25,451 bases of DNA, taken from a virus. The stretch covers positions 1-25,451 of IMG/VR virus record IMGVR_UViG_3300021964_000469; one strand, written 5' to 3'. Below are positions 1,055 to 19,278 of the stretch, one piece after another. The position numbers and the translations under genes are program-made. Each line of letters opens with the position of its first letter. Positions within the stretch are counted from its first letter, which is position 1. A model generated the notes under the pieces. That model was not told the DNA's origin, ran no database searches, and was given only the letters and a program-made list of their open reading frames with translations.

Positions 1055-1086
1055 ATTCGCACCTTATTTGTTGTTGTAATTGTGTG

Positions 1087-1097
1087 CAACGCACAAA
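1087..1097 (-). promoter_or_regulatory. Late-element site 1 (TTTGTGCGTTG)
   Basis: One of five near-identical 11-mers in the window, all with TTTGTGCRTTG on the minus strand. This copy fills the gap between the stop of the large internal virion protein (1102) and the tail fibre start (1054), so it would drive or control the fibre gene. I see no convincing sigma70 -10 box at a fixed distance. A phage-specific promoter or regulator site is an inference. Confidence 0.5.
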
Positions 1098-1101
1098 TAC
1101 T

Positions 1102-4100
1102 TTAATATCTACCAAAAGATTTGAAAGCATTTGTAAGTTGATTCATTTCATCTTTCCAAAACCACATTCTTGCTCCGGGCAAATTTCTAACAACTTGTTT
1201 AGAGCCTTCACTTACATTACCTTGAACAACATCCATTACACCTTTAGTTATATCGGTTGCTATACTTGGCCCTGCACCTAAAACATCTGTGACAGGATCA
1301 ATCACACTTGGTTTTACTGGAAACTTTGGATTAATTGTTCCCATTCCAATATCAGGGCCACCTAATTGTGCAGATGTATGCAAAGCTCTATAATAAAAAT
1401 CTGAATACATAGCAATAAGACCTGAATTATCTATCGATCTAGCTAACAAATCAGGCCATTCCATTTTATCAGTAACATAATCCGGTGTTTTTAAATCCAT
1501 AGATAAATACCCAAGTGCAACACTTGTAACAACTGCGGCAGCTCTGTTTTTAATTTGTCCTTGTGCAAAGGCAGCAGTAATTTTGTTGGTCGCAGCAAAT
1601 GTATAAGAATAAAATTGAAATGGTAACCCTAATAATCCGTTCTCAATTCTTGCATATCCACGATATTTAGGGTCTTCTGACAAACCAAAACGTTTAGCAA
1701 CACGCATAGGTATATAAACAATACCATCAACAATATTAGGTTTGTCTGCCGGTGTTCCCATTAATACAGTATTTAATATTCCACTATTCATTGAGCTTCT
1801 AAATGCTTGCGTTGCATCTGCATCAGCCCATTTAATAGTATTTGGCAAATAAAGACCTCCATCAGTTTGCTCTACTGGCATTGCTGCAATACGTCTTGCC
1901 ATACTTTCATCAATATTATATTGAGCAAGCTTCATGGTATCTTGTGCTGTAGCTTTACCTTCGGCTATTTGTTTAGATAACTTTATTAAGCTATGTCCAC
2001 GAACTACAGAATCAATAAATTTCATAGTATGTGTCATTGGAGTCAAACCATTTAAAAAATAATACGCATTTCTAACTCGTGTCATGATTCCATCTTCGAG
2101 AGGATTGTTTGTAACATCCTCAACCAGTCTCATATGCACATCACCTTTAACTAAATCTGCTAATTCACCTGCTAAACGACCTTCTGCTCCTGACAATTTT
2201 ACCCTGTTATCTTTTAATATTGCTAACAAACCTTGCATAACATCGCCAAGTTCATGTTCCATAACTATTTTTGCAAAATCGGGTAATGTAGCAAAACCTG
2301 CTGATCCTAAATAATTTAATTGTGCCATATCACGCAATATTCTAGCAGTCTTTTGGTCTAGCGTATTAGGGTCACGCAAAACACGACCAACTATACGATC
2401 ATGTAAATGCATAAAGTCTTTACGTGTTGCATTAATTTCATCTATTGACTTTCCTGCTGCATACAACTCATCATCCATATCATCAAGAACATCATCTAAA
2501 CTTCTATTAAATGATTTTTGAAATTCATACTGACCTGCAACTCTTTGGTTATATGCCCTCATAACCTTCAATGGATTTAATTCAATAAACTCTGTAATTA
2601 ATTTATTGGGTATATCTAATGTTCTATGTTTAAAATGTTTTGATACACCATGCCCAAAAAACTGTATTGATTCATCTGATGTGTCATCTAAACCTAAAAT
2701 CCTGTCAGTAGTTTCATTAGCTCGTTTCAACAAAGCTTCAGGTTGTGTAGCCTTACCTATTTCAAATGGGGATAAAGCAGGCTTTTGTTCTAGCTCACCA
2801 TATTTATTTCTTACAATAATTTTAGGATTATCCCTAAACCAATTCACAAGTCTTTCAACAAAGACATCACGATTATCTCGTATTTTATCCTTTAATAAAA
2901 ATCTAGGAAAAAAACTTTCTTCATTCGGTGGTAATATTTTTGTGTCTTTGATTTCCTGTAATGTAAATTCTAATTCTTCTGAATCCCTTTTTATTCTATC
3001 ACGACTTCTTCTTAAATTTCTTAAACGCTCCAGTTGACCCTTTGACAAATATTGTTTTGTTATTTTCTTTTCAATTAGCTTTGAAAAAAGATTGTGTTGT
3101 TTCGGAGTAAAATAAACACCCTTACTTTTTTGTTCACGTAGTTTCTTTTCTAACTCACCCATCCTATTTGTAAAAAAACCTTCTGCCTTTTTAGCTTCAA
3201 GATCATCAAGTATGGATTGTGCCTTTTGGCCTTGAGTTAGATTCGATTGATTTAATGAGTCTATAAGCTCATCAACCTTTGCAATTTGTTCTGGAACTTT
3301 ATCTTCCATCTCTTTAATTAGTTTGCTTTTCTTTTCTAACCTTATTTCGTTATTTATTAATTTACGTTGCATAGATACTGTGTCACCAATTTGACCAGTT
3401 TCCTTCAATCGTTTTTCCCATTTTGTCCAATGCTCTGTCCACAGTTTTGCTAATTGCTTTTCATTTTCATCTAATGGCAAACCTTTAATATGCTTTTCAC
3501 TTACTTCATTAAGCCAATCATTATAACCTTTTTTGTTTACATCAACATCAAAGGTAGGTGTAGATTTGTGATAAACATCACTGTATAATTTTCGTGACTG
3601 ATCATGTATTGTTATCCACTCACCATTTAAAACTTCTTTATTTTGATGTACTGAATTACCTACTGACTTGCCATATTTGTTTAAATTTAATCTTAAGCCT
3701 GAATCGTTAGCTAATTTTAAAAATGCAAGCTTCACACTATCAGGTTGATCTGATTGCAATATACGTTTCATTGCAGTTGTAACACCTTTAAACAAAAAAC
3801 TATTCATAAACATGTTACCATCAAATCCATAAGGATCGTCTATGCCTGCTGTTTGTGATGTTATTTCTATTTGATTACGAATATGCAGTTCTTTATCTAT
3901 TTCTTTTAATTCAATATTATTTTCATCGATTGCTCTGTTAATACCATCTATTTGCAATCGTATCTTTTTTTCTTTGTTCTTCAGATCATTAAGTTTTTTG
4001 TTTTGCACTTTTGTAGGTTTGGAAACACTGCTTTGCAAAGATTGCTGATATGTATCAATATCATTAACAACTTTATCATGTGCTGTTTTTAATTTATCTT

Positions 4101-5235
4101 TATTCTTATTAAGACCAAATTCTTCTTTTGGTATACTTTCTCTTCTTGCATTTAGTTTTTCTAATTTAGTTTCTGCAAATGGTTCTTTTGCCTCGAGTTT
4201 AGAGTTAAATACAGATTGATTACCAGTATCATTTTTACCAAAACGAATTACCTCAAAGTCACCTTTAGCTATCTTCATATCACCGGGAACAAATATTTCC
4301 CCCATAGCTTCACTCTTTGCTTTGTATTTTTCTAAAGCACTTTTCTTAATTCTAAATATAACTGCATCATCGCCTGCTTCTGTGTCAGGAAACCTTTGCA
4401 TAAGCTCTTTATCTTTATAAGCTGTATATGTTACCGATGTATCAAAGTCTTCACCAAGAGACACACCAAATTGTTTTTCGCCAACAAAATCATCGGCACT
4501 ACCTTTTAATGTAAGATTGCCATCTGTATCAATAAATGTTTCTATCTTTTTGTTTTTAATATTTGTTCCATGATAAACAAATTCACCACCTCTAACACTT
4601 TCTTCAGGAATACCAAGCTGTCTATTTAACTCTCTTATGTCCTCTTGCATTCTTTGTTGAACTTTAGCTCGTTTAGTAAGAGGTATTGAAACTAAACCAC
4701 CAAGTATCATTCCCCCTGCAAACGCTGTTCCTACATTGAAAACACTTTCTTCAACAGTTCCGACAGGATCAAATGGATAACGTGCAGCTTCAAGCCCTGT
4801 TTGTATAGCAGCCGTTCCTGCACCAACACGAAAAGCTGACCTTGCAATACCAACCCCAAAGCCACCAAAAGGTAAAGCAAATAAATTTATTGGGTCAAAT
4901 ATACCTGCACCAATCTGTGACAACATGCTACTATTGTAAAGCACTTCACGTCTTTTTTTGCTATCATCTATTCCACGTTTCATTTCAAACATATGTTCTT
5001 GATTGTTTGCTCCAATCAAATCAGGTGCGTACTCTTCATAACCTTCCATGTCTTGTAAAGGATTGTATGTCGAGTCAAAAGCATCACGATACTTAAAGTA
5101 ATTCCCTATAGATTCAAAGATTGGATCGTATTGATATGCTAATGAAGCACTTAATGTTTCTGCAAATGTTGGTGTTGGTGAAAGTTTATTTTCTACACCT
5201 GAAACATATTGAAAAGCATATGGATTTACTGTCAT
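1102..5235 (-). CDS. Large internal virion protein with ADP-ribosyltransferase-like domain (T7 gp16-like position)
   Basis: A 1377-residue protein, close to the size of T7 gp16 (about 1318), and the last and largest of three internal-protein genes. It is likely packed in the head and ejected with the DNA. Residues ~105-185 are glycine-rich and hydrophobic, fitting insertion into the host envelope. Residues ~218-335 look like an ADP-ribosyltransferase of the polyvalent-protein (ART-PolyVal/PARP-like) type: VYHGTN at 220-225 supplies the His-Gly pair, a Phe-Gly and Tyr-rich segment follows at 256-272, and GEIFVPGD at 312-319 supplies a candidate glutamate. Residues ~370-760 are highly charged and probably coiled coil. 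I see no lysozyme or transglycosylase motif. Its ATG directly follows the stop of the upstream gene, with AGGTG as ribosome site. Confidence 0.75.
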   Translation of the reverse strand: MTVNPYAFQYVSGVENKLSPTPTFAETLSASLAYQYDPIFESIGNYFKYRDAFDSTYNPLQDMEGYEEYAPDLIGANNQEHMFEMKRGIDDSKKRREVLYNSSMLSQIGAGIFDPINLFALPFGGFGVGIARSAFRVGAGTAAIQTGLEAARYPFDPVGTVEESVFNVGTAFAGGMILGGLVSIPLTKRAKVQQRMQEDIRELNRQLGIPEESVRGGEFVYHGTNIKNKKIETFIDTDGNLTLKGSADDFVGEKQFGVSLGEDFDTSVTYTAYKDKELMQRFPDTEAGDDAVIFRIKKSALEKYKAKSEAMGEIFVPGDMKIAKGDFEVIRFGKNDTGNQSVFNSKLEAKEPFAETKLEKLNARRESIPKEEFGLNKNKDKLKTAHDKVVNDIDTYQQSLQSSVSKPTKVQNKKLNDLKNKEKKIRLQIDGINRAIDENNIELKEIDKELHIRNQIEITSQTAGIDDPYGFDGNMFMNSFLFKGVTTAMKRILQSDQPDSVKLAFLKLANDSGLRLNLNKYGKSVGNSVHQNKEVLNGEWITIHDQSRKLYSDVYHKSTPTFDVDVNKKGYNDWLNEVSEKHIKGLPLDENEKQLAKLWTEHWTKWEKRLKETGQIGDTVSMQRKLINNEIRLEKKSKLIKEMEDKVPEQIAKVDELIDSLNQSNLTQGQKAQSILDDLEAKKAEGFFTNRMGELEKKLREQKSKGVYFTPKQHNLFSKLIEKKITKQYLSKGQLERLRNLRRSRDRIKRDSEELEFTLQEIKDTKILPPNEESFFPRFLLKDKIRDNRDVFVERLVNWFRDNPKIIVRNKYGELEQKPALSPFEIGKATQPEALLKRANETTDRILGLDDTSDESIQFFGHGVSKHFKHRTLDIPNKLITEFIELNPLKVMRAYNQRVAGQYEFQKSFNRSLDDVLDDMDDELYAAGKSIDEINATRKDFMHLHDRIVGRVLRDPNTLDQKTARILRDMAQLNYLGSAGFATLPDFAKIVMEHELGDVMQGLLAILKDNRVKLSGAEGRLAGELADLVKGDVHMRLVEDVTNNPLEDGIMTRVRNAYYFLNGLTPMTHTMKFIDSVVRGHSLIKLSKQIAEGKATAQDTMKLAQYNIDESMARRIAAMPVEQTDGGLYLPNTIKWADADATQAFRSSMNSGILNTVLMGTPADKPNIVDGIVYIPMRVAKRFGLSEDPKYRGYARIENGLLGLPFQFYSYTFAATNKITAAFAQGQIKNRAAAVVTSVALGYLSMDLKTPDYVTDKMEWPDLLARSIDNSGLIAMYSDFYYRALHTSAQLGGPDIGMGTINPKFPVKPSVIDPVTDVLGAGPSIATDITKGVMDVVQGNVSEGSKQVVRNLPGARMWFWKDEMNQLTNAFKSFGRY

Positions 5236-7932
5236 TTAAAAAGCACCTAATGGCATAATACTTTTACCCATTCGTTCTTTAGTTATCTTGTCTTGTACTA
5301 ATTGTTGATTGATAGCTTCTTGTGCAAGTTCTTCCGATCCTATGTCATCTTTTAATCTATCTTCTTGTAGTCTTAAATCAGATAACTGTTTTTCTTTAAT
5401 TTTTCTTGCTGTAACTTCTCTTGTTGACCATGCATACATAGTTGGATTACCTTCTTCATTATTACCTAAAATAGGTATAAGCTCACCACCGGGGGTAAGT
5501 TCCATTGCATAATAGATAACTTCACCACCATATCCTTCATCAATATTTGTGGGTGATATAGGATATGGAACAAGGTATGCTTTTTTTTGATCTCCAGTTT
5601 TTGCAACATCAACAGCAGTTCCAAGTCCCTTAATAGCTAAATATGTTGGGGGAGAAGCAAAGAATAAATTTCTATCTGCTTTTAATTTATCAAAGAAACT
5701 GCTTGAACTACTAATAACTCCTGTATTTAAAGTATATCCATTCGGAAGTTCATCTTCTACAGTTTCAAGAAATTGATCTGCTAATTCATCATCAGGCAAC
5801 ACAGCTTCTATTGCATACATAGAGCGATTTACAAGCCCATTAGGATCAGCAACAATACCGTTGGTAGGTAAAAACTTTGTTTCCACAAAGTTAGTTACTA
5901 GGTTATCAATTTTTTCTTTATCCTTTATTCCTGATGATATCAAATATTCTACATATGGTGTCATTTCATTAACGACATTGTAATCTAATTTATTAGTATG
6001 ATTTCTTAAATATTTTTGCACATCACCTGACTTGCCTTTATGCAATATCATTCTTACTGAATTATCAAATTCAGTTTTGTTTTCTCTACGCATTTTAATA
6101 TTATTAAGTATATCATTAAATTTATCCATGCCTTTGATTTCAGCAACATCTAATGCAGCCAACAACAAACCACTTGTTTCGGCACTAATTCCACCTTTAA
6201 CTGTTAGTTTGTTTTGGAAGTTATTAGTATTAGGATTTAAAAACCTTAAATATCGTGCTGCTCTATTAATAGCAACAGTTTGCTGTTCACCTGTTAAATT
6301 TTCATCTGCTAATTGTTGCATTTGATTTACTATTGTAGGAGGTACATATCCCTTTTTTCCTACATACATATCAATTTCTGAATTATCTAATGATTCTTTT
6401 GTATAAAAATATGATTTGTCTTTTCCATTTAATATGCGGTCTTCAACTCGTGTGTTTGTTTTCTTTGTTGGTGGTGCTGAATTTGTTTCAATATCATCAT
6501 TAAGATTTTGTTCTTCTATTGATTTATTTGTTTCTACTTCACTTTGTTTTACTAATGCATGTAATTGTGAAAAACTTTGTGCAAGTTTATTGTTTAATGA
6601 ATCAGGTGTTGCTTTTAAAATATCTTTAACTGGCTGAACAAGCTCTTCTCTCAATCCTGATGTTTTTACACCATTAGATATAATTGCTTGCCTAATTGCA
6701 TTAATGTCTTTTGACGTTATATCTGTAATTTTATTTAAAATATTATTTTTAATACCATCTGTAATAGCTTGGTACATTGATTTTTCATTATTTAAAACAG
6801 TTTCCTGCCCTATATTACCTATTTGTTGTAAGTTTTTCTTTTCCGTTTCCATCACAGATTGCATTATTTTTTCAATATCTTGAGATGTGTTTGCGTTTTG
6901 TAAATCTGTAATAATTTTATTATTGAATGCCTGTTGTTCTTTTGTTGCTTTGTATGCTCTTATTGGCTTAAGTCGATTTCTTTCAAGTTTGGCATCTTGT
7001 TCTATTTGGTCTGCATTAGATTTTAATACTTGAACTTGTTTATTTAAATCAGGTAGCAAACTAGTTTCTAAAGAATCAATAGCAAGTTTTACTGACTCTT
7101 TATATTTGTCAGGTACATCGTTTAATGTTACACCATTGCTTAATATAGCACTTTGTATTTTAACAAGTTCACTTGAGGTTGCATTTCTAATACCTTGTTT
7201 TAATGAACCAAAATTTTGTGCAACTAATGCAGCGTCTAATAAATTATTAACACCACTTTGCTTTACATTCATATATTCATTTGGTAACGATTTTATTCTT
7301 TCAAGTAAGTTGTCTAAAGATTTTTGTGCTTCTGGTGAATTTGTTTCAAATAATGTAGGTATATTTGAAATATTATTTTCTATAACTTTTAATTCGTTTG
7401 AAAGGTGATATTCATTTTCTCTAATACCATCTTTTATTTTTAAATCATTTCCATGTTGTGCATAAGCTTTTGAAAATATATTTTTAAAATCTTCAATGTA
7501 GTTTTCACCACCAGTTTCAGCCATCCTCATACTTACTTCATCAAGATAAATTTTTGCTTTATCTTTAAACTCTTGCTCGTTTTTTGCAGTTTTTCTTATG
7601 TCAGCAAGACCTGTTTCGGTATCAGTTTGTATTGCATTGGCCATTTTTTTTCTTAGTAAAGGCTCTGCTGTATTTCTTGCAACTTGGCTAAGATTTGTTG
7701 GCAGTTGACGCATAACTAAATTATTGTCTTCATCAAGAACAGACAAGTTCATTACTGTTTCTTGACCAAGTTTTTCTTGTTCAAATACTGCATCTTTAAA
7801 TGCTCTGTCTTGTATTTCTGAACCAAGCTTAGCTATTGCATTTCCAACCTCTGTTGCACCTGTATTTGTGCTTATTATTCCACGAGGTCTGTTAACAAAT
7901 GTTGTTGTTTTTGCTCTTATAAATTCTGCCAT
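5236..7932 (-). CDS. Internal virion protein (T7 gp15-like position)
   Basis: An 898-residue, mostly helical, Asn/Lys/Gln-rich protein between the small internal protein and the 1377-residue one. This order matches gp14-gp15-gp16 of T7-like phages, where the three form the core above the portal and are ejected to extend the tail through the envelope. I find no catalytic motif. The N-terminus (FIRAKTTTFVNRPRG) is a basic segment, and long heptad-like stretches run between residues ~180 and 480. The start overlaps the stop of the upstream 154-residue gene, and the stop abuts the next ATG, so the three are translationally linked. The function call rests on order and size, not on recognised sequence identity. 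Confidence 0.65.
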   Translation of the reverse strand: MAEFIRAKTTTFVNRPRGIISTNTGATEVGNAIAKLGSEIQDRAFKDAVFEQEKLGQETVMNLSVLDEDNNLVMRQLPTNLSQVARNTAEPLLRKKMANAIQTDTETGLADIRKTAKNEQEFKDKAKIYLDEVSMRMAETGGENYIEDFKNIFSKAYAQHGNDLKIKDGIRENEYHLSNELKVIENNISNIPTLFETNSPEAQKSLDNLLERIKSLPNEYMNVKQSGVNNLLDAALVAQNFGSLKQGIRNATSSELVKIQSAILSNGVTLNDVPDKYKESVKLAIDSLETSLLPDLNKQVQVLKSNADQIEQDAKLERNRLKPIRAYKATKEQQAFNNKIITDLQNANTSQDIEKIMQSVMETEKKNLQQIGNIGQETVLNNEKSMYQAITDGIKNNILNKITDITSKDINAIRQAIISNGVKTSGLREELVQPVKDILKATPDSLNNKLAQSFSQLHALVKQSEVETNKSIEEQNLNDDIETNSAPPTKKTNTRVEDRILNGKDKSYFYTKESLDNSEIDMYVGKKGYVPPTIVNQMQQLADENLTGEQQTVAINRAARYLRFLNPNTNNFQNKLTVKGGISAETSGLLLAALDVAEIKGMDKFNDILNNIKMRRENKTEFDNSVRMILHKGKSGDVQKYLRNHTNKLDYNVVNEMTPYVEYLISSGIKDKEKIDNLVTNFVETKFLPTNGIVADPNGLVNRSMYAIEAVLPDDELADQFLETVEDELPNGYTLNTGVISSSSSFFDKLKADRNLFFASPPTYLAIKGLGTAVDVAKTGDQKKAYLVPYPISPTNIDEGYGGEVIYYAMELTPGGELIPILGNNEEGNPTMYAWSTREVTARKIKEKQLSDLRLQEDRLKDDIGSEELAQEAINQQLVQDKITKERMGKSIMPLGAF

Positions 7933-11226: not shown

Positions 11227-11231
11227 ATAAT

Positions 11232-11495: not shown

Positions 11496-11510
11496 ATATA
11501 AATCTCCTTA

Positions 11511-12323
11511 CTAGTTGTTATCAAGAAGTTCATAAATGCCGTTGTCGTCAATTACGACAGCACCCATGGACATCATTGATGTTGCTAAGTGTGAGACTCT
11601 TTCAGGTACATAATTTAACTCAGTAGTTACATTAGCACCAATTCCAAGTCCTATAGCAGTAGTGTGATATGCCATATTCTTACCGGCAGTTACAGCAGTT
11701 GTTGAAAAAATCTTAAAGCCTAAGAACTCTTTCATTGTCATGCCACCTGCATATGGTAAATTCTGATCGCCTACATAGTCAGAAGATGCAAACTCATTAA
11801 TTAAGAATAAGTCAGCAAATCCCTTTGGATGCATAGCAATATATCTATTTCCATCTTCAGGTAAGTTAGCAGAACCAAATGTTTCAAAAGCTGATAATAA
11901 ATCTGCTTTCTCTACAGCACTACTAGTGTCATGTAACTGAGTTGAATTAGCACCTGCATCCATAGCTGTAATAAGAATCTCATCTGTCTTACGGCCTAAT
12001 GCAGCAGCGGCTGAAGTAGCAATAGCTTGACGCTCATCAATGTTTGTCTTGAGTTCGTCTAACTTGTCAATGTACTCAGCAGCATAATAGTCTGCTAATG
12101 TTGCTTCTACGTTAGTATGATCTAGTTCCATCGGAGTAACCATACCGTTCCTTGATTTAGTTGAAGCTGAACCAGTACCGATTTTTTGAAAGCGTACTAC
12201 GCTTCCTGCAACATTGCTTACGTTACGAACAGTGTTCATTAACTTTGAACCCATTCTTTGGTATGCAAGATGTACCTCGGACTCGAACTGCTTAATAAAG
12301 GCTTGATCTATTGTGTTAGCCAT
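11511..12323 (-). CDS. Major capsid protein
   Basis: A 270-residue protein with the composition and layout of HK97-fold phage capsid proteins. It has a helical N-terminus (FIKQFESEVHLAYQRMGSKL), a mid domain with DYYAAEYIDKLDELKTNIDE like the long spine helix, and a segment with YIAMHPKGFADLF and SDYVGDQNLPYAGG typical of the A domain. It is smaller than T7 gp10A (about 345), and no extra Ig-like domain is seen. The ribosome site AAAGGA is good. The gene lies after scaffold and before the neck genes. A late-element copy is 146 bases upstream (12469-12479), within the end of the preceding gene, which would give this abundant protein its own transcript. Confidence 0.88.
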   Translation of the reverse strand: MANTIDQAFIKQFESEVHLAYQRMGSKLMNTVRNVSNVAGSVVRFQKIGTGSASTKSRNGMVTPMELDHTNVEATLADYYAAEYIDKLDELKTNIDERQAIATSAAAALGRKTDEILITAMDAGANSTQLHDTSSAVEKADLLSAFETFGSANLPEDGNRYIAMHPKGFADLFLINEFASSDYVGDQNLPYAGGMTMKEFLGFKIFSTTAVTAGKNMAYHTTAIGLGIGANVTTELNYVPERVSHLATSMMSMGAVVIDDNGIYELLDNN

Positions 12324-12413: not shown

Positions 12414-12947
12414 TCAGCTTATTACAGGCCGTGTATCTTCAAGGGATTGCATATAATAAAGGTTTTGACAACGCACAAATCGTAAAACGTGATATCCATT
12501 ACTAGAAATAGCAGAAGGTAAAAAGCCAAAACCAAGATATTCCAACCAACTTAAAGTCTTGTAGTGATCTATTGGGCATACGTTTTCCAATAAAAAGTAT
12601 TTATCTTGGAAGTAATCAACAATAGATGGTGACAATTTAACAAATGTTTTTGGATATTGTTCTACTACAGGACTGCATAGCATCCAAATTCTTGCTACCA
12701 AGTCATGTTGTGGAACAACGCCAAACATCATTACAGGTTTTTCTTTTAACAAAACGGTATAAGTTTCTGCTGTATCTACTTGTAATGATTGCATTAATGC
12801 TCGCCATGGTGACACACCTGCAATCAAACATTCTCGTAGATCAGTATCCCTTAAATTATGTTGAAGCTTTTCAGCATGACTTGGCCTGCTCTTTACTATT
12901 TTAGCAATGCCATAATCACCCTCACCCGTAAAGACGCTTCCACTCAT
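12414..12947 (-). CDS. T7 gp13-like / GNAT-like virion-assembly protein (DUF2833-like)
   Basis: A 177-residue protein read from the ATG at 12947, chosen over an upstream in-frame ATG (12977) because a strong ribosome site (AGGAGGT) sits seven bases before it. The pattern is that of the gp13/DUF2833 group: a substrate-style N-terminus, then KPVMMFGVVP, ARIWMLCSP, and a C-terminal segment with CPIDHYKTLSWLEYLGF like the end of an acetyltransferase fold (known residue pattern: W-L-x-x-L-G-F). In T7 the homologue is needed for assembly of the internal core. It overlaps the scaffold gene by 26 bases. Enzymatic acetyl transfer is not established by sequence. Confidence 0.7.
   Translation of the reverse strand: MSGSVFTGEGDYGIAKIVKSRPSHAEKLQHNLRDTDLRECLIAGVSPWRALMQSLQVDTAETYTVLLKEKPVMMFGVVPQHDLVARIWMLCSPVVEQYPKTFVKLSPSIVDYFQDKYFLLENVCPIDHYKTLSWLEYLGFGFLPSAISSNGYHVLRFVRCQNLYYMQSLEDTRPVIS
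12469..12479 (-). promoter_or_regulatory. Late-element site 3 (TTTGTGCGTTG), inside gp13-like gene
   Basis: A copy of the repeated 11-mer in the same orientation as late transcription. It lies within coding sequence near the 3' end of the gp13-like gene (it encodes F-V-R-C), 146 bases before the capsid ATG. Its conservation inside a coding region argues for a DNA-level function such as a promoter for the capsid gene. A TATATG string lies 17 bases beyond TTGTGC, but the same spacing is not well kept at the other sites. Confidence 0.5.
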
Positions 12948-13647
12948 TATTGACCTCCTGTACAAATGCCGGATCACGTCTACCTTGCTGCCAGTATCTT
13001 GGGTCTTTCATCTTGGCTTCTACATCTTCTTTAGTAACTTGCCCTGCAATCGTACCCGGGCCTGATACATTAGCTGATTTAGTTTGCTCTATGATATGCT
13101 CTAAAGCTTTTATGCCTGCTGAACTTGCACCCAGTTCTGCAACAGCTTCCTGCATTGCAGGATCAGGAAAGAACTTGTTCATCCATAACTGTACAGCCTC
13201 AACTCTTTCATTAGCATTATCACCTAGTTCTTTTGATACTGCTTCAAGATCAGGTTGCTGACCCATAATAGCTGTAGCATATTTTTCTATGCCTTCAGCA
13301 AACTCTTCTTGGCTTAATCCGTTTTCCCATGAATAGTTAGACCACCAGTCAAGCAACTCATTATCTACAGCAGCCTGCTCATCTATAACTTCAGGTAATA
13401 CGTAATCACCAACTGCATCAGGCCTACTTGAAAATGCTTCTGTTTCCATTTCCTGTAATAGTTTATCACGTAATTCTTCTTCACCTTTACCAAGCTTACT
13501 TGATAACTCATCATATGATTTACGTAAGTCTTCAGGTGTCTGAAACTTTTCAGGTAGCCATTCAGGTCTTTCAGCCTGAACAGTTTCTGTTGTTTGTTCT
13601 ACTGGTGCTTCAGTAGCTTCACTTGGTGTTGCTGATGTTTCTTCCAT
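12922..13647 (-). CDS. Capsid scaffolding protein
   Basis: A 241-residue, strongly acidic protein with an N-terminal Glu/Thr/Pro-rich disordered stretch, then a motif of scaffold type (ERPEWLPEKFQTPEDLRKSY, as in T7 gp9 and related proteins). A helical body follows, then a basic C-terminus (DPRYWQQGRRDPAFVQEV) that would bind the capsid protein. T7 gp9 is about 307 residues. It lies one gene upstream of the capsid gene, and its ATG overlaps the end of the Bbp19-like gene by 29 bases. It should act during procapsid assembly and leave the mature particle. Confidence 0.87.
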   Translation of the reverse strand: MEETSATPSEATEAPVEQTTETVQAERPEWLPEKFQTPEDLRKSYDELSSKLGKGEEELRDKLLQEMETEAFSSRPDAVGDYVLPEVIDEQAAVDNELLDWWSNYSWENGLSQEEFAEGIEKYATAIMGQQPDLEAVSKELGDNANERVEAVQLWMNKFFPDPAMQEAVAELGASSAGIKALEHIIEQTKSANVSGPGTIAGQVTKEDVEAKMKDPRYWQQGRRDPAFVQEVNNEWKRLYG

Positions 13648-13906
13648 GGTTTATCCTCTCTGCATGTTGAACTCGTTTGGCAATCAATGCCACTAGATAT
13701 CTTTGCCCTTCAAGATGCCTTAACTCTTCAGAACTTATATTAGCTCCTGTTATAGCTTCTATTGTTATGGACTTCAGATATTGTAGGGTAGCCAGTCCAC
13801 TGGGAGTATTGAATGTACTGGCTAAATCTAAAGAAATTTTCTCATCATTATTCTTGGAGCGAGGGTATCCATCAACCCCCAAGTGCTTGGATGCTTGGGT
13901 TTGCAT
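13619..13906 (-). CDS. Bbp19-like small protein
   Basis: A 95-residue protein whose central pattern FNTPSGLATLQYL...LEGQRYLVALIAKRV matches the short phage domain known as Bbp19-like: F-x-T-x-x-G-x-x-x-L followed by E-G-x-R and a hydrophobic helix. This type of protein sits between portal and scaffold genes in many podoviruses and has no firmly known role, though a head-assembly function is likely. It overlaps the portal C-terminus by 35 bases and the scaffold start by 29, in different frames. AGGAA about ten bases before the ATG is the likely ribosome site. Confidence 0.7.
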   Translation of the reverse strand: MQTQASKHLGVDGYPRSKNNDEKISLDLASTFNTPSGLATLQYLKSITIEAITGANISSEELRHLEGQRYLVALIAKRVQHAERINHGRNISNTK

Positions 13907-15422
13907 TCGGGTCTATTCCTGTTTGTTGTTGCATCTGTTGTGCCATCTGTACCATGCGTTGTCTCTCACCAACATCACGGATCAACTGGTCTGGCACACC
14001 AAATTTCTTGGCTAAATAGATTGCTGTTTCTTCTGAGGAGACTAGGAGGTTAATCACCTCAGGGCCGAAACGCCCTGCGACCATTTCTAAGAACCTATCT
14101 AGGGACACAATGTCTTGGTTAGATTGTGCCTGTGCCAGTGGGGAAACGCTTTTAATCTTAACTTGCCTGCCATTAACTGTTGGTATTTCTATCCTGCCTT
14201 GCTTAGTTAGTAAGTATATTACACGTTGTAATACTGGCTGTACCATCTCAGCTTGCAATCTACCAAATGCTGAACCTATCTTTCTTGATAGATCAGCCAT
14301 ACGTTCTGCAACTTCTGTTGCTGAAGCAGGTGTCCTGTTAGGATCACCAAGCATATCATTGTACAAAGCACGCTTAATATTATTCCTCATATCATTAAGA
14401 ACCAAGTTAGCGACATCAAAGTTGCCTGCTGCTCTTATTGGTTGCAATCCATTAGAGTTAGGTGCTTTAGGTATAACAGTTCCCGGCACTAGGTTTATTG
14501 TATCTACGTTGATAACGCCATCATCATCCATTTGATAGATGCCTGATATAGCCATCTGTGCATTCTCAAGAACTAATTCGATTGTAAGGTTGGCACTCTT
14601 AATAGCACTTAATGCATTAACAGCAGGGCCTCTACCATAAACCTCACCACTTGCTTTACTCCATCTAAAAGCAATAAATGGATTAGAGCCTATGCCATTA
14701 TACTCTTCATTCAATATAAGCTTCTTATCACCCATCTCTATAACCATATAGCTATAGCGTTCTTCATTTGGTTTGTCATAAAGCTTACATGATACCTCTA
14801 GTATCTTGCATTTACTATCAGGATACTTCTGTATCTTGTCTAAGGTTTGCTCAGTAAAACTACCTCTTGGATATGCAATAGGTAAGTCACTAAACTTTAA
14901 ATCTCTTTCTCTATAAACATGATCAATTCTTCCATCAGGGCCTGTATCCAATACAACATGTGGCAATGGGATAGAATGGAAACGTATTGGGTTTACAGCA
15001 TCACCTTCAGTAACAGCAAGTACAGCAGTACCAAGAGCAAGGTCTATAAAACATTCATGTATCTCTTGTGCAAAGTTAGATGTCTGTAGTATTTCAAATA
15101 CATAATTTGTGACTTCATCTAGCTTGTTATTTATTTCATCTGCTTCTTCAGCAGGAACTTCCCCACCGGCAACAAAGTCTGCCCATCTAGCAAAGTTAGG
15201 AACTAATCCTGCCTGCAATCTTGATGCAAATTCCTGCACACCAACAACAGCAGTCTCATCAAATATACGATCATCACGTCTTTGACCGGGAGTATAGTTC
15301 TTGAACCCCTGTCTTTGTGGTAAACAATACTCAAAGATTTCATCGTAGAGTTCTTCAAACTCACGTCTGATTGTCTTGGCCTTTTCATATTTAGCCATGT
15401 AGCCTTGGGCTATATCATGCAT
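13872..15422 (-). CDS. Portal (head-tail connector) protein
   Basis: 516 residues (T7 gp8 is 536). It has the opening of the podovirus head-to-tail connecting family: Y-x-x-x-x-x-x-R-x-x-F-E-x-L-Y near residues 12-26, then LPQRQGF, and the motif FDETAVVGVQEFASRLQAGL around residues 54-73. A later line, YGRGPAVNALSAIKSANL, matches the family's Y-G-R-G-P-x-x-x-x-L signature. The C-terminus is Gln-rich (QMAQQMQQQTG). The dodecameric ring would form the DNA channel and dock the terminase. It starts in a TAATG overlap with the 71-residue gene. Confidence 0.93.
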   Translation of the reverse strand: MHDIAQGYMAKYEKAKTIRREFEELYDEIFEYCLPQRQGFKNYTPGQRRDDRIFDETAVVGVQEFASRLQAGLVPNFARWADFVAGGEVPAEEADEINNKLDEVTNYVFEILQTSNFAQEIHECFIDLALGTAVLAVTEGDAVNPIRFHSIPLPHVVLDTGPDGRIDHVYRERDLKFSDLPIAYPRGSFTEQTLDKIQKYPDSKCKILEVSCKLYDKPNEERYSYMVIEMGDKKLILNEEYNGIGSNPFIAFRWSKASGEVYGRGPAVNALSAIKSANLTIELVLENAQMAISGIYQMDDDGVINVDTINLVPGTVIPKAPNSNGLQPIRAAGNFDVANLVLNDMRNNIKRALYNDMLGDPNRTPASATEVAERMADLSRKIGSAFGRLQAEMVQPVLQRVIYLLTKQGRIEIPTVNGRQVKIKSVSPLAQAQSNQDIVSLDRFLEMVAGRFGPEVINLLVSSEETAIYLAKKFGVPDQLIRDVGERQRMVQMAQQMQQQTGIDPNANPSIQALGG

Positions 15423-15637: not shown

Positions 15638-15683
15638 ATGAATCTCCTTTTCTTTAACGCATACATATTAAATTAATAATACA

Positions 15684-15694
15684 CAACGCACAAA
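15684..15694 (-). promoter_or_regulatory. Late-element site 2 (TTTGTGCGTTG)
   Basis: Repeated 11-mer in the gap between the large terminase stop (15697) and the 71-residue gene (15637). It points towards portal, scaffold and downstream head genes. Downstream on the minus strand there is TAATAT 17 bases after TTGTGC, which could serve as a -10 box for a sigma70-type enzyme, but the -10 match is poor at other copies. Confidence 0.5.
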
Positions 15695-15696
15695 TG

Positions 15697-17217
15697 TTAT
15701 AACCTAGACCAAAGACCTTGTCTTCTTTGTTGTTTAGGTTGTCTAGTAAATACATCAAACTCTCTTCTAGCATTGAATGCCTTAACAGTTTTGAACTGAC
15801 CCATCACTTGTCTGCCCTCTCCTGACCCTAACATAAGGTACTGCAAGGCATCATGTATATGAGAAAACCTATCCTTTGATGGTTTGTCTTCATACCTTTC
15901 ACCTGATACTTGCATTCTTCTATAGTGATAGCCACCTTCAAAACCTTTAATCAATTCTTTACATCTATAGTCTATCAAAACACCTGACTGCCCATCAACC
16001 ATACGTTGCAATGGGCCTGATACAGACTCTAGTCTTAATGCTACATCATTACTATGTGTTGGTCTAGCTTGAAGTCCTGCACCTCTTAATATTTGAAATG
16101 GAGTAGATTCATCTGTCTGTGCCCTGAAGTCGCCTGCCGGATCACCAAATATATTAACATCACAGTTAGCGTAACGTGTTGCTATCTCTGCTCTAAGCAA
16201 TTCAGCAAATCTAACTATACCCATATCAAAGGCAACTATCTCCTGTAATATAAGCCAACGACCTCTAACCTTCTGCCCAAAGACAGCAGCAGGGGTCAAG
16301 CCAAAATCTAATCCAATAAATAAAGGCATACCATCAGCAACAGGTATTTCTTCTTTCGCTACATGTACATCGGCTCTAAACATATTATATACTGGCTTGC
16401 CGTCTTGTATATGCCCAAGCCTATTCATAACATAAACATCTATCCAACTTTTGGTTTTACCTTGAATAAGGTTAGGATAATAACTTGGCATCATGTTCTT
16501 TTTGTTTTCAGCTAACGGATTAGGATTATATTTTAATACCAATCCCTCATCATCTTTTTCCTCTAACATAGCTGATGGTTGTGTATAGAACTTCCAGTTG
16601 TCAGGTTTTACCAACATCCTAGATTCTTCAGAACTTATATGATCGGGTACAGGAACTTCGCCTGCCATGATTGGCCACCAATGATCTTCTTCAGGAGCAT
16701 TGGTATCTGCAATCACACCAGTCCATGTTGGCCCTCCATCTCTCATGGATGGATATCTACCCACACGCATAGTACATGCATCAATAATTGACTTGGGTAT
16801 TTCCCTAGCCTCATTAATCCATATGCCAGTTAGTTCTAATGAAAGAAGTTTCTTTACGTCTTCAGGTCTATCGAGTGCAAGGAATATAACTTCCAACTCC
16901 AAGTCACTCTTGGATATCTTGTGCGTATATGGAACTGACCAAGAAAACCTACCCCAATCTTCTTCCGGAAACCAATCCAACCAAGTCTTAATCGTGGTAG
17001 TGCGAAGCTGAGGATTTGTGTTTCTGATGATAGCCCAACGACTTTTCCTTTTGCCATCTGGTGATTTCTCCTGCATTAATGCTCGTCTGAATACTTCTAC
17101 AGAACAAGCTACTGATTTACCTGAACCTACTGGCCCTCTAATACCACGAAAAAAGGTATCATCCTTCATAAAATTTTTACAGACATCACCATCAGGTTTG
17201 TATTTAAAGTTGGTCAA
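15697..17217 (-). CDS. Terminase large subunit (TTG start)
   Basis: 506 residues with the two expected activities. The ATPase half has Walker A GPVGSGKS (28-35) and Walker B GIWINEA (131-137, with the Glu at 136). The nuclease half has GLDFG (302-306, Asp304), FGDPAGD (357-363) and HIHDAL (453-458), supplying acidic metal ligands. It cuts concatemeric DNA and drives it through the portal. The start is TTG: a stop lies two codons upstream in frame, the next ATG would remove conserved N-terminal residues, and AAGGA lies about ten bases before the TTG. Its first 14 bases overlap the end of the 64-residue gene. Confidence 0.93.
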   Translation of the reverse strand: MTNFKYKPDGDVCKNFMKDDTFFRGIRGPVGSGKSVACSVEVFRRALMQEKSPDGKRKSRWAIIRNTNPQLRTTTIKTWLDWFPEEDWGRFSWSVPYTHKISKSDLELEVIFLALDRPEDVKKLLSLELTGIWINEAREIPKSIIDACTMRVGRYPSMRDGGPTWTGVIADTNAPEEDHWWPIMAGEVPVPDHISSEESRMLVKPDNWKFYTQPSAMLEEKDDEGLVLKYNPNPLAENKKNMMPSYYPNLIQGKTKSWIDVYVMNRLGHIQDGKPVYNMFRADVHVAKEEIPVADGMPLFIGLDFGLTPAAVFGQKVRGRWLILQEIVAFDMGIVRFAELLRAEIATRYANCDVNIFGDPAGDFRAQTDESTPFQILRGAGLQARPTHSNDVALRLESVSGPLQRMVDGQSGVLIDYRCKELIKGFEGGYHYRRMQVSGERYEDKPSKDRFSHIHDALQYLMLGSGEGRQVMGQFKTVKAFNARREFDVFTRQPKQQRRQGLWSRL

Positions 17218-17398
17218 CTTTCATATCCTTACCAACTTTCATAAGCTTTTCCACCACCTCAGGTGCAATGGCTGCAATCATTTTGTCTGCTTCATAATCT
17301 GTACAGAACTGTTCCGGGTAATGTTTGAAGTGTACGTTCTTAACAACTATACGAAGTATATCTCTTTCTTCTTTCTTGAGAGTATGTAAGAAGCTCAT
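17204..17398 (-). CDS. Small protein overlapping terminase start
   Basis: A 64-residue protein from the ATG at 17398 (an upstream TTG in the same frame is less likely, as AAGAG precedes this ATG). The sequence is helical and includes DILRIVVKNVHFKHYP and ADKMIAAIAPEVVEKLMKVG. Short proteins of this kind are often encoded directly before the large terminase gene in marine podoviruses, but I know of no function. Its last 14 bases overlap the terminase start in another frame, suggesting coupled translation of the TTG-started terminase. Confidence 0.65.
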   Translation of the reverse strand: MSFLHTLKKEERDILRIVVKNVHFKHYPEQFCTDYEADKMIAAIAPEVVEKLMKVGKDMKVDQL

Positions 17399-17451
17399 TA
17401 GACAACTCTTGTTTTCTCTTTTATTTGTTTTACTCTTAAAGCATGACAATA

Positions 17452-17470
17452 CTTATTATAAAAGTATGTG
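17452..17470. repeat. Short inverted repeat with TATAAT
   Basis: ATACTT and AAGTAT flank a short AT centre, upstream of the 64-residue gene. On the minus strand the centre reads TTTATAATAAG, a good match to a -10 box, but no convincing -35 hexamer is found 16-18 bases before it. It could be a weak promoter for the terminase pair or chance AT-richness. Confidence 0.3.
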
Positions 17471-17526
17471 CTTATATTATTGGTAAATTTAAAAATTTGA
17501 AAGTAAATATTTATCATTCGGTTATC

Positions 17527-17787
17527 CTATGAATAAGATCGATAGCTTTTCGTTTTGCTTGCAATCTTTTTGGGCTGTTTAGATACTTGTTTACCTGCTC
17601 TAATTGCTTTTCGTTTAAGAGCCGTAGAGGCTGCGTATTCAGAGGAAGATAAAGCTTTAATTGCTTTCTCAGGTAGATAACGTTCACCAGTTGCTTTCGA
17701 CCCTTGTGTACTAGGTTTGCCTGATTTCGTTCTCCACTTTTGTCTAGTCCATGCACGTAACGATCTCTGTGACTTTGCTAATGCCAT
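17527..17787 (-). CDS. Very basic small protein with WRTKSGKPS motif (DUF5872-like?)
   Basis: 86 residues, heavily Lys/Arg/Ser. The N-terminal half has W13 and W18 in the pattern W-T-R-Q-K-W-R-T-K-S-G-K-P-S, then GERYLPEKAIKAL, with a basic tail. This looks like a small family I recall from marine phages and some algal viruses (possibly DUF5872, name not certain). The aromatic-plus-basic motif could bind nucleic acid. An overlapping frame (17514-17756) is also open but lacks this pattern. It is one of a run of basic mini-proteins between the terminase genes. Function unknown. Confidence 0.65.
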   Translation of the reverse strand: MALAKSQRSLRAWTRQKWRTKSGKPSTQGSKATGERYLPEKAIKALSSSEYAASTALKRKAIRAGKQVSKQPKKIASKTKSYRSYS

Positions 17788-17802
17788 AATTAAATCTCTA
17801 AT

Positions 17803-17832
17803 AGTTGAGAGAGTTGATAGAGTTGAAGTTGA
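17803..17832. repeat. Four AGTTGA repeats
   Basis: The hexamer AGTTGA (TCAACT on the minus strand) occurs at 17803, 17812, 17821 and 17827, spaced 9, 9 and 6 bases, in the gap just upstream of the 86-residue gene. It may be a protein-binding array, a leader element or a simple microsatellite. Confidence 0.55.
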
Positions 17833-17841
17833 TATACAACA

Positions 17842-18006
17842 TTATCTATAACCACCACCTTTAGACTTGTATTGTTTGGCAAGCATCTGTGCTTTACGAG
17901 CAGACCATTGCCCGGGCTTACCACCCTTGCCACTAGCCTTGATTCTGCGAAAGATAGCTTTCCTCATAGTAGGTTTGGTATAATTACCTGCTGCGTTAAC
18001 TGCCAT
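17842..18006 (-). CDS. 54-aa basic protein (GGKPGQWSARKAQ motif)
   Basis: The frame begins at the ATG at 18006 and ends with TAA at 17842. The protein opens MAVNAAGNYTKPTMRK and continues with a glycine-lysine run, then PGQWSARKAQMLAKQYK and a GGGYR end. I recognise the pattern (AGNYTKP-x-MR, GGKPGQWSARKAQ, KxxGGGY) from short proteins common in marine and freshwater phages, always unnamed. Its strong conservation despite small size argues for a real product. It overlaps the stop of the upstream 88-residue gene by 11 bases. A DNA-binding or packaging role is a guess from charge and position. Confidence 0.75.
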   Translation of the reverse strand: MAVNAAGNYTKPTMRKAIFRRIKASGKGGKPGQWSARKAQMLAKQYKSKGGGYR

Positions 18007-18262
18007 TATTCTTTTTATCCACTGCCATTTTTCTTTTTACTCTAAGCATAACAGACCTTAACTCTTCTTTTCTTTTTCTTTCTAAACCATCAAGCTCCAT
18101 ATCATCAACCTGCATTATCATTTTATTTATGTCTTCAGCCTCTTTTTTTGTAGCTCTTTTATTAGCAAGATAGGCGTTCAATGACCTTAAAGGTGTGTTT
18201 AATAAACTTAATTTTTTAGTCTTAGACTTTCTTTCAGCAATAGCGTCTTTCATTGCTACCAT
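17996..18262 (-). CDS. Basic coiled-coil protein, 88 aa
   Basis: 88 residues with an Asp/Lys-rich, helical sequence (AIAERKSKTKKLSLLNTPL, then MELDGLERKRKEELRSVMLR), ending in VDKKNNGS. Heptad-like spacing suggests a coiled coil. I do not recognise a family. Two in-frame ATGs (18262 and 18253) are possible, and AGGGG before the first favours it. The gene lies nine bases after the stop of the 43-residue gene and overlaps the next gene by 11 bases, so it belongs to the same transcript. Confidence 0.55.
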   Translation of the reverse strand: MVAMKDAIAERKSKTKKLSLLNTPLRSLNAYLANKRATKKEAEDINKMIMQVDDMELDGLERKRKEELRSVMLRVKRKMAVDKKNNGS

Positions 18263-18271
18263 AATAAACCC

Positions 18272-18403
18272 CTATTTCTTTTTAGACTTCATAATCTTAG
18301 CTTGTAATGACTTAGGCAATGTCTTCTGCTTGCCAGTTAACATACTCTTTTTCTTCGGTGGTCTTCCTTTAGTTGAACCATATGTTCCTTTGCCCATAGG
18401 CAT
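18272..18403 (-). CDS. 43-aa basic protein (GTYGSTKGRPPKKK motif)
   Basis: The ATG at 18403 shares a base with the preceding stop (TAATG). The 43-residue product is MPMGKGTYGSTKGRPPKKKS followed by a Lys-rich tail ending KIMKSKKK. The GRPPKKK core is like an AT-hook (G-R-P), so minor-groove DNA binding is possible. Proteins of almost identical layout (M-P-M-G-K-G-T-Y-G-S, R-P-P-K-K-K) are frequent in marine phages. A strong ribosome site (AAGGAG) lies in the end of the upstream gene. Role unknown. Confidence 0.75.
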   Translation of the reverse strand: MPMGKGTYGSTKGRPPKKKSMLTGKQKTLPKSLQAKIMKSKKK

Positions 18404-18705
18404 TATGCTTTCTCCTTTTTAGATTTATTTCTCCTTGAAATGGCACGACCTTTCTTAATAGCATCTGATTTGCTACTCGCACCCCAAGCCTTTAATGATA
18501 ATAATAACCTAGTAGGTTTACCTTTACTATCTCTCTCTGGCCCTTTAGCTGCTCCCATCCTCTGCAAGAAAGAAGCACGTCTGGGATTGTCACCACTCTT
18601 AACTGGTGCTTTCAATGTACCTTGTTTGTATGAAGCTCGACCCTTTGCGTTTAATCCACCCTCAGGGTTCTTGCCTTCTTTACGTGTCCATGCCGGTGTT
18701 GCCAT
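18403..18705 (-). CDS. Basic small protein with EGKNPEGGLNAKGR motif (DUF6321-like?)
   Basis: 100 residues. The N-terminus (AWTRKEGKNPEGGLNAKGRA) and the middle motif (PVKSGDNPRRASFLQRMG) match a small conserved family seen in many phages and a few larger viruses (possibly DUF6321, name from memory). The C-terminus is Lys/Arg-rich. It is the first of the basic mini-protein group. A late-element copy (18738-18748) lies about 33 bases upstream and could start a transcript covering this group and terminase. Function unknown. The recurring Gly, Asn and Pro around basic residues could fit nucleic-acid binding. Confidence 0.7.
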   Translation of the reverse strand: MATPAWTRKEGKNPEGGLNAKGRASYKQGTLKAPVKSGDNPRRASFLQRMGAAKGPERDSKGKPTRLLLSLKAWGASSKSDAIKKGRAISRRNKSKKEKA

Positions 18706-18737
18706 ACTTTAGTTATCCCTTATCTCGTTATCACGCT

Positions 18738-18748
18738 CAATGCACAAA
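18738..18748 (-). promoter_or_regulatory. Late-element site 4 (TTTGTGCATTG)
   Basis: A repeated 11-mer with A in place of G at the variable position, upstream of the basic mini-protein group (first ATG at 18705). It points along late transcription, like the other four copies. GATAAG lies 17 bases after TTGTGC. Confidence 0.5.
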
Positions 18749-18785
18749 CGAACCTTGAGAGCAAATAATGTTTGTAGGTGTCCCC

Positions 18786-18830
18786 TGCCATGGTGGGGTG
18801 TCGCAGTTTTTACCCCCCTACCCCTCACCC
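18786..18830. other. G-rich tract and CCATGG dyad at the end of the small terminase gene
   Basis: On the minus strand, starting within the end of the small terminase gene, there are G-runs of 3, 4 and 6 (positions 18828-18830, 18821-18824 and 18813-18818). They are followed by a short dyad around CCATGG with flanking CCCC/GGGG (18782-18798). In AT-rich DNA this is unusual. It could fold as a G-quadruplex or hairpin. There is no T-run, so it is not a classical terminator. Confidence 0.4.
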
Positions 18831-19195
18831 AAGTCTATGGAAACACGAATCTCCCCTGCGTGGAGATGCATTTGCTTGTCGGGAGCTTTAAAGCCTGCCC
18901 TGTCCAGTATGTCTTTGCTAGCTTCTAACTGCACGTACTCACTCTTAGCTCCCTTGGCCAATGCCAATACCCTCTGGCTGGCTATCGTAGCAGATAATCC
19001 TATAGTCTCTGTTATCCGTGACATCATATACTGTTGTACATGTGGCAGTCTCAAAGTCTTACTGGCTGTCACTCTACCACTCTCACCATCTGCATATCCT
19101 GCTATCTTAGATGCTTCTTTAACACTACATCCATTTGCTACGATGGTATCAACTAAGGCCATCTGTTTCTTCGTTAACTTACGTTCTGTTATCAT
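18818..19195 (-). CDS. Terminase small subunit
   Basis: 125 residues from the ATG at 19195, chosen over an upstream in-frame codon at 19246 because the extra 17 residues are encoded by low-complexity G-runs. The family pattern is visible: LTKKQMALVDTIVANGCSVKEASKIAGYA (residues 7-35) is a helix-turn-helix of the small-terminase type. Then comes a conserved line with L-R-L-P-H-V, and a helical body ending near ILDRAGFKAP. It would recognise the packaging site and present DNA to the large subunit. The large subunit lies five small genes downstream, which is more distant than usual. SD-like AGGGGG precedes the start. Confidence 0.8.
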   Translation of the reverse strand: MITERKLTKKQMALVDTIVANGCSVKEASKIAGYADGESGRVTASKTLRLPHVQQYMMSRITETIGLSATIASQRVLALAKGAKSEYVQLEASKDILDRAGFKAPDKQMHLHAGEIRVSIDLGEG

Positions 19196-19202
19196 AGAGA
19201 AT

Positions 19203-19223
19203 CCCCCCCTGTAATCCCCCCCC
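19203..19223. other. Paired G-runs upstream of the small terminase gene
   Basis: The plus strand has C7 (19203-19209) and C8 (19216-19223) separated by six bases, so the minus strand reads G8-ATTACA-G7 just before the terminase ATG. The second run doubles as a rough Shine-Dalgarno element. Such runs could form a G-quadruplex or be prone to slippage. Confidence 0.5.
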
Positions 19224-19250
19224 TTTATCACATCACAAGAAACCATCTGT

Positions 19251-19261
19251 CAATGCACAAA
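19251..19261 (-). promoter_or_regulatory. Late-element site 5 (TTTGTGCATTG)
   Basis: Repeated 11-mer about 56 bases upstream of the small terminase start, oriented with late transcription. It sits next to a tandem repeat containing the related string TGTGCAT (19279-19300). This makes it the most elaborate of the five sites and a candidate for the first late promoter. Confidence 0.5.
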
Positions 19262-19278
19262 TACTCTTCTCATTCTCA

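Follow-up and report, generated by a model that had tools for sequence, protein, structure and literature searches.

A strand-specific 11-bp box at late-gene borders of an uncultured virus contig and its relatives, a probable mark of activator-dependent late promoters

The window analysed here is the whole of a 25,451-base IMG/VR virus contig (record IMGVR_UViG_3300021964_000469), an incomplete genome in which the 11-mer TTTGTGCRTTG, the late box, occurs five times, in every case on the minus strand, which carries the late genes. We propose, at a probability of roughly 0.58, that the five copies belong to activator-dependent late promoters whose activator is HTH2, a small helix-turn-helix (HTH) protein encoded among the early genes; the proposal is built on sequence comparison.

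In this mechanism, the five copies would mark five late promoters served by the host RNA polymerase and its main, sigma70-type, factor. Each would combine the 11-bp box, whose final TTG would start the -35 hexamer, with a weak extended -10 (TGn-NAnnnn) placed after a 17-18 bp spacer, and transcription would begin about 32 nt past the box. HTH2 would bind the box just upstream of and overlapping the -35 and recruit polymerase via sigma region 4 (class II activation), so that the terminase, portal block, capsid and tail fibre genes would be switched on together.

Five copies of one box precede late genes

The five copies lie as follows.

19251..19261, minus strand: late box copy 1, TTTGTGCATTG, with ACA next to give TTGACA; predicted promoter of the small terminase gene (terS)
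18738..18748, minus strand: late box copy 2, TTTGTGCATTG, before the basic-protein gene; box start 43 nt from the ATG at 18705
15684..15694, minus strand: late box copy 3, TTTGTGCGTTG, between the large terminase gene (terL) and the small gene preceding the portal gene (start 15637)
12469..12479, minus strand: late box copy 4, TTTGTGCGTTG, in the coding end of open reading frame (ORF) 12414-12977, before the capsid gene (start 12323)
1087..1097, minus strand: late box copy 5, TTTGTGCGTTG, upstream of the tail fibre gene; the predicted -35 begins with its last TTG

Copy 5 starts exactly 43 nt from the tail fibre ATG at 1054. A preliminary description of this DNA had placed five copies at these positions and on this strand, before the tail fibre, capsid, portal-block, basic-protein and terS genes and with one of them in coding sequence, and had judged far less than one such 11-mer to be expected by chance. 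All five positions do read TTTGTGCRTTG, the gene borders are as it gave them (the small pre-portal gene heading the portal block), and the coding copy is that at 12469. The mean count of the 11-mer in dinucleotide shuffles was 0.08, five copies being reached in 0 of 100. When 2 mismatches were allowed, the window held 26 matches against 22.7 by chance, and since this is chance level only near-exact copies were used.

The box keeps its place and strand among the relatives that carry it

Searches of IMG/VR with the portal and capsid proteins, taking for each the best 80 of the matches listed, gave 147 distinct loci of uncultured marine podoviruses, many of them fragmentary, in which 123 exact copies have the late-strand orientation and 2 the opposite one. 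Together with the five of the window these make 128 copies, which lie before the capsid gene (60), the small pre-portal gene (34), terS (15), the basic-protein gene (11), the tail fibre gene (1) and the portal gene (1), the remaining 6 being more than 400 nt from any anchored gene. Exactly five exact copies, every one of them late-strand, are found in each of two near-complete relatives, G001 and G002. In the non-redundant sets the flanks diverge and the box stays. Box carriers reach down to 61-62% portal identity (L174, L175) and up to a G+C content of 0.53, and the box is missing from some relatives with 80% identity. The 41 contigs first compared comprise 23 box-carrying and 18 box-less ones, so the box is not universal in the family.

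A held-out set was obtained by scanning IMG/VR for TTTGTGCRTTGACA plus a G run, which returned at least 119 stretches; 18 of the longer contigs were followed, in which each terS copy is present by selection. Of the 64 WTTGTGCRTTG copies in these contigs, 63 keep to a single strand within their contig, one contig (G056), with no terL, portal or capsid match, being oriented by the box itself.

The capsid copy lies at the end of the preceding gene, where it is read as the codons TTT GTG CGT TG. (FVRC). At 59 of 120 capsid loci TTT GTG CGT is followed by a cysteine codon, 18 have GTA and 9 have GTT, and GTG makes up 13.5% of valine codons in the late genes of box-carrying genomes. On loci chosen for an exact box a codon argument is circular, because these must have GTG, and the held-out contigs, chosen by the terS box, are the fair test: all 17 that include the capsid gene have an exact box 142-153 nt before it. 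An exact capsid box is likewise present in 22 of 23 contigs of the first set, the exception being G013, a box carrier with GTA. In eight box-less contigs that encode the same amino acids, the valine codon is GTA or GTT.

A terL tree of 56 rows implies 4 changes of box state, at least 3 of them forced by well-supported branches; 13 inner branches are open, and the branches of MEP301, Hodr and G011 are long. One of the changes involves G028, a contig with no early markers and two diverged box-like strings. The closest cultured relative is Pelagibacter phage Hodr (EXVC031P), with 60% portal identity. Hodr, OM43 phage MEP301 and pelagiphage HTVC034P have related capsid and portal proteins, and the first two also a related TerL; no exact box was found on either strand of the three. 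Among 14 loci from a bacterial genome collection, 2 labelled as a Rhodobacterales metagenome-assembled genome (labels that may be wrong) have exact boxes, and 2 others have copies with one mismatch, in one case on the opposite strand. No tRNA genes were found as a clue to the host. K-mer counts in the box-less relatives yielded no placeable motif of their own except recurrent ribosome-binding-like strings in a few genomes.

The box adjoins a predicted sigma70-type promoter core

The final TTG of the box coincides with the first half of a -35 element. At terS the box runs on into TTGACA in 15 of 15 non-redundant copies, and the box-less relatives shown keep TTGACA at terS without TTTGTGC, several of them with CATAAA at the same spacing; because they do so, the alignment of box and -35 has support beyond the box itself. 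Downstream of the five window copies, the following -10 elements were predicted.

19224..19232, minus strand: predicted extended -10 TGT GATAAA of terS, 18-bp spacer from TTGACA
18712..18717, minus strand: predicted -10 GATAAC of the basic-protein gene, 17-bp spacer, ending 6 nt before the ATG at 18705
15658..15663, minus strand: predicted -10 TATGCG of the small pre-portal gene, 17-bp spacer
12443..12451, minus strand: predicted extended -10 TGC AATCCC (weak) of the capsid gene
1061..1066, minus strand: predicted -10 TAAGGT of the tail fibre gene, 17-bp spacer, ending 6 nt before the ATG at 1054

The tail fibre TAAGGT could instead, or additionally, be a ribosome-binding site.

With offset 0 as the first base past the box, TG stands at offset 17/18 in 20 of 42 non-capsid and 19 of 23 capsid copies of the first, non-redundant set, and TA or TGnNA at offset 20/21 in 25 of 42 and 16 of 23. 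This -10 pattern was picked after inspecting that set and is visible only with TA/TGnNA taken at two neighbouring offsets. In 38 held-out copies unlike the first set the same offsets still rank top, in a less marked way (TG in 23 of 38, TA/TGnNA in 18 of 38). The layout of a sigma70-type extended -10 promoter (TTGnnn, a 16-18 bp spacer, TGn plus -10) is therefore present as a weak family-wide signal. The statement in the preliminary description that there is no constant sigma70 -10 box stands for a consensus scan, which misses all five sites, and gives way where the family is taken together, with a weak TGn/-10 locked 17-18 bp downstream. Its suggestion of a late promoter or activator site gains support from the recurrence of the box, with borders and strand unchanged, in relatives with as little as 61-62% portal identity, and from the way it tracks the small HTH proteins described below. 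That the boxes are parts of promoters is, on the sequence, well supported and very probable. Four of the five window sites have poor core elements (-35 and -10), and since these are weak the promoters should need an activator; we regard such activator dependence as likely.

A phage-specific RNA polymerase or sigma factor could recognise the box in place of an activator, and the box is in fact conserved far better than the -10, as would be expected of a dedicated polymerase or sigma. We nevertheless hold this to be very unlikely, as PF00940 has no match in the window or in 13 box-carrying relatives (a T7 control gave E 9.9e-110) nor, in an earlier search, in any of 14 relatives, some of them the same contigs, and no early-strand ORF exceeds 381 aa in 24 genomes of at least 30 kb. 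An unnamed 898-aa late ORF (5236-7932) matches no PHROG, no Pfam family over cut-off and no polymerase, a novel sigma factor not having been searched for. The TTG of the box, moreover, aligns with the TTGACA of box-less relatives and is followed by sigma70-like spacing, as the host-polymerase proposal would have it.

In box-less relatives, the tail fibre leader has no gap in several cases and a gap in seven (G004, G008, G010, G014, G017, G021, G028). Several gapped leaders show by eye a string like TTGACA or TAGACA some 17 nt ahead of TAAAGG or the like, which is perhaps a box-less promoter. A palindrome with core GCCCTTGACAGGGC spans the terS -35 in box-less G003 and G004 (L152/L153, L164/L165) and is perhaps an operator of their own.

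Near the box itself, short direct repeats of the CACCCTGTCCA type lie directly upstream of the copy at the small pre-portal gene in L019, L022 and L026. Upstream of the window's terS box (19262-19300, minus strand) there are two TGTGCAT copies 11 bp apart, and few other terS copies have such a pair; extra TGTGCRT sites upstream of terS number 5 in 63, with 0.8 expected, which is not enough to base a further element on. After the terS -10 (19196-19224, minus strand) come two runs of 6-8 G, or a G/A-only tract, which recur in most of the box-carrying relatives shown and in many box-less ones too and are possibly a packaging (cos/pac) or structural signal.

Distances from box to gene

Distances were taken from the box start to the start of the anchored gene, in sets that include box-less contigs. 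For the tail fibre gene they are 43 (15 cases), 44 (1) and 54-59 (10), i.e. 43 in 15 of the 26 with a box; for the small pre-portal gene 57-65 (13); for terS 58-168 (28); and for the capsid gene 130-157 (48). The box is absent within 230 nt at 21 of 47 tail fibre, 2 of 15 small pre-portal, 13 of 41 terS and 12 of 60 capsid genes. No anchored start is nearer than 43 nt, the shorter values 1, 8 and 32 being unanchored ORF starts. A distance of 43 would put the predicted transcription start at the ATG itself; it is seen before unrelated genes, and two of the genes concerned (L011/L018, L017) have by eye no ribosome-binding site, so that some late mRNAs may possibly be leaderless.

These distances bear on whether the box acts in RNA, as a processing, antitermination or translation signal within a long late transcript. 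Its confinement to a single strand, its presence before several genes and a possible ribosome-binding site between box and ATG in some of them would suit such a role. We give it a very slim chance, because the terS box is fused to TTGACA with a -10 downstream and for that reason should not be transcribed from its own promoter, because the distances from box to ATG vary from 43 to 168, and because the flanks have no shared sequence besides the -10 signal and, at terS, the G runs.

HTH2 as candidate reader of the box

Two small proteins are encoded by overlapping genes within the early operon.

22473..22739, plus strand: HTH2, XRE/HTH_3 protein, candidate late activator binding the box
22301..22549, plus strand: HTH1, a further small protein that looks like an HTH protein by eye, possibly a partner of HTH2 or a Cro-like repressor

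HTH2 matches PF01381 (HTH_3) at 3.2e-8 (33.9 bits, cut-off 23), and one of its homologues matches PHROG 4836 ('CII-like regulator') at 2e-4. Its AlphaFold model has a predicted local distance difference test (pLDDT) score of 82, low over the first ten residues, and is nearest to the P22 C2 repressor and the controller protein C.AhdI, with a best E of 2.7e-3 and none at or below 0.001. HTH1 has neither a Pfam nor a PHROG match.

Of the 41 box-carrying contigs (23 from the first set and 18 held out), 26 include a RecE, nuclease or HTH1 marker. HTH2 is present in 23 of these 26, always with the helix SL[IV]xKWE; in G047 and G048 it was missed by the profile search on filtered ORFs and recovered by a pattern and six-frame search. 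The remaining three seem to stop short of the locus, G013 at the nuclease gene and G057 at HTH1, while G035, a 15-kb fragment laid out like G002, would by that layout also end before it. The SL[IV]xKWE helix occurs in 0 of 12 box-less contigs with RecE and nuclease genes: six have an HTH2 with another helix (KLFGQWE, KTLGDWE and alike), three have HTH1 only, two have neither, and Hodr has a variant helix, SLITAWE, without HTH1. This co-occurrence makes HTH2 our favoured binder of the box, at somewhat better than even odds.

A host regulator or host alternative sigma factor might instead read the box, HTH2 being merely co-inherited. The box could then follow host type, and G+C content does range over 0.36-0.53 in carriers against 0.32-0.39 in the 18 box-less contigs; we find this rather improbable, given that the HTH2 recognition helix differs with box state in the six box-less relatives that keep a homologue.

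Two other candidates were set aside. The zinc-ribbon-like protein of G001 and G002, considered as an Ogr-like activator, is in no other genome compared. RepO (HTH_36) was found by a first search in 11 of 23 box carriers and 1 of 18 box-less contigs; a more sensitive search found it in 9 of the 18, and it is not preferred as box reader.

Points against activation and the case for an operator

Several observations weigh against HTH2-activated promoters. The -10 signal is weaker at the held-out sites (18 of 38 against 25 of 42), plain TATAAT scoring by offset gives no clear peak, individual hexamers match poorly, and a generic sigma70 consensus scan returns 41 sites where 66.5 are expected and finds 0 of the 5 box sites. 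The tail fibre -10 strings (TAAGGT, TAGGAT) resemble a ribosome-binding site too. On the side of the protein, HTH1 is present in all the same 23 carriers (and in 3 of the 12 box-less contigs, without HTH2), so presence alone does not single out HTH2, and 15 of the 41 box-carrying contigs have no early marker and are silent on it. XRE proteins usually bind dyads as dimers, and the box has no dyad. The comparison contigs are uncultured, often incomplete and of shared ancestry. Box-less relatives, finally, keep a bare promoter at terS, and some have a promoter-like string before the tail fibre gene, which makes repression harder to argue against and holds down the overall weight given above.

Part of this evidence would suit a repressor: the box may be an operator at which HTH2 (or HTH1) covers the -35 and represses the late genes early in infection or in lysogeny. 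An overlap of box and -35 fits a repressor equally; HTH2 resembles the P22 C2 repressor; one relative has an integrase and a repressor-like protein, integrases being present in 2 of 26 contigs searched; and the box-less relatives retain the bare TTGACA promoter at terS, the seven with a tail fibre gap including several with -35/-10-like strings by eye. A weak core at four of five window sites, however, hardly calls for repression. After terL, moreover, the next ATG follows at -1 to 18 nt in 17 of 17 box-less relatives, therefore with too little space for such a promoter, so that the entire promoter is gone and not the box alone. We consider an operator unlikely, if worth keeping in view, and activation by HTH2 would account better for the poor cores.

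Comparison with known late-control systems

In layout the predicted promoters are likest to the MotA-box promoters of phage T4, with a phage box at the -35 and a -10 at fixed spacing. According to PMC2988021, the MotA box of T4 middle promoters takes the place of the -35, a sigma70 -10 follows at fixed spacing, about half of the promoters have TGn, and many are switched together via sigma region 4. The same source describes the MotA box as tolerating changes and its -10 as stringent and excellent, whereas the box here is near-invariant, the -10 is poor, and the genes are late structural ones; spacing also differs, the T4 box standing about 12 bp from its excellent -10 and the late box 20-21 nt from a weak one. 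No MotA or AsiA homologue turned up among the early proteins scanned, in which no dedicated search for one was made.

The late promoters of P2 and P4 are activated by Ogr/delta, the P2 sites lying near -55 and being dyads bound by a zinc protein. As there, several separate late operons would each have one shared activator site; unlike in P2, the box abuts or overlaps the predicted -35 and lacks a dyad. Lambda CII, the C proteins of restriction-modification systems and lambda CI at PRM are small HTH proteins that activate from next to or over the -35, and our candidate, a small HTH protein whose model matches P22 C2 and C.AhdI, would be like them. They drive immunity or restriction genes, not sets of late structural operons, and the CII-type site is a TTGC-N6-TTGC repeat, which the box does not contain. 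Short conserved strand-specific boxes before structural genes also recall the promoters of T7-type polymerases; here, unlike there, no single-subunit polymerase was found in the searched contigs and the geometry is sigma70-like. Because defining features of both MotA-box and P2 promoters are lacking, we file the late box promoters under neither and place them, as a variant, among the phage activator-dependent late promoters.

Among the literature matches listed, the box is not described as a phage promoter, and of the listed papers holding exact 11-mer strings none is on phages by title. MEP301 is described as without an RNA polymerase and dependent on host transcription (PMC8024684), HTVC034P appears in the same table as HTVC010P, and for Skadi four sigma70 promoters and two Pribnow boxes are given near replication genes (PMC10504331). 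The accounts consulted treat late control in marine podoviruses without an RNA polymerase in general terms only (PMC10504331, PMC8024684). The proposal, if true, would give a large group of such phages a simple late switch of one box, one candidate protein and five operons, would provide a tag by which late operons could be recognised in sequences of uncultured phages (at least 119 stretches have the terS form) and would add a small activator-promoter pair. More tentatively, at somewhat less than even odds, a widespread group of uncultured marine podoviruses lacking an RNA polymerase may organise their late genes in about five operons, with host promoters built on one near-invariant 11-bp box and a dedicated XRE-fold activator (HTH2, perhaps with HTH1); box and activator form would have been lost or changed together more than once, one box would lie in coding sequence before the capsid gene, and some mRNAs would be leaderless from the ATG.

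Gene layout and further observations

The minus strand of the window carries the genes for TerS, TerL, portal, capsid, tail proteins, an internal virion protein and the tail fibre; the plus strand carries the early genes for the HTH proteins, RepO and a RecE-like nuclease. The late genes referred to above are the following.

18818..19195, minus strand: small terminase gene (terS), phrog_2538, likely start at 19195
18403..18705, minus strand: basic protein gene, DUF6321 (PF19846)
15697..17217, minus strand: large terminase gene (terL)
13872..15422, minus strand: portal (head-tail adaptor) gene, phrog_332
11511..12323, minus strand: major capsid protein gene, phrog_3437
2..1054, minus strand: tail fibre gene, open at the contig end

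The terS ORF has its first ATG at 19246, ahead of the predicted transcription start, and translation likely begins at 19195 instead. The tail fibre gene matches no PHROG and, over cut-off, no Pfam family; it is named from its placement and from likeness to a relative's gene, its N-terminus being 82% identical to that of the equally placed gene of G002.

In G002 there is a 127-bp end repeat, and the contig encodes an integrase as well as a repressor-like protein that matches HTH_3 below the curated cut-off and PHROG 4 at 2.9e-6. Near the integrase, a translated stretch (L151 8810-9037) resembles a tRNA remnant by eye and is a possible attachment site; ARAGORN found no intact tRNA. With integrases in only 2 of the 26 contigs searched, the group is not called temperate. 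On the early strand, G001 and G007 have recurrent early-gene leader strings such as AGGAGAACTA, G007 holding 8 copies of TAGTTCTCCT, the reverse complement of a AGGAGAACTA-like leader string; these look like a shared early ribosome-binding site.

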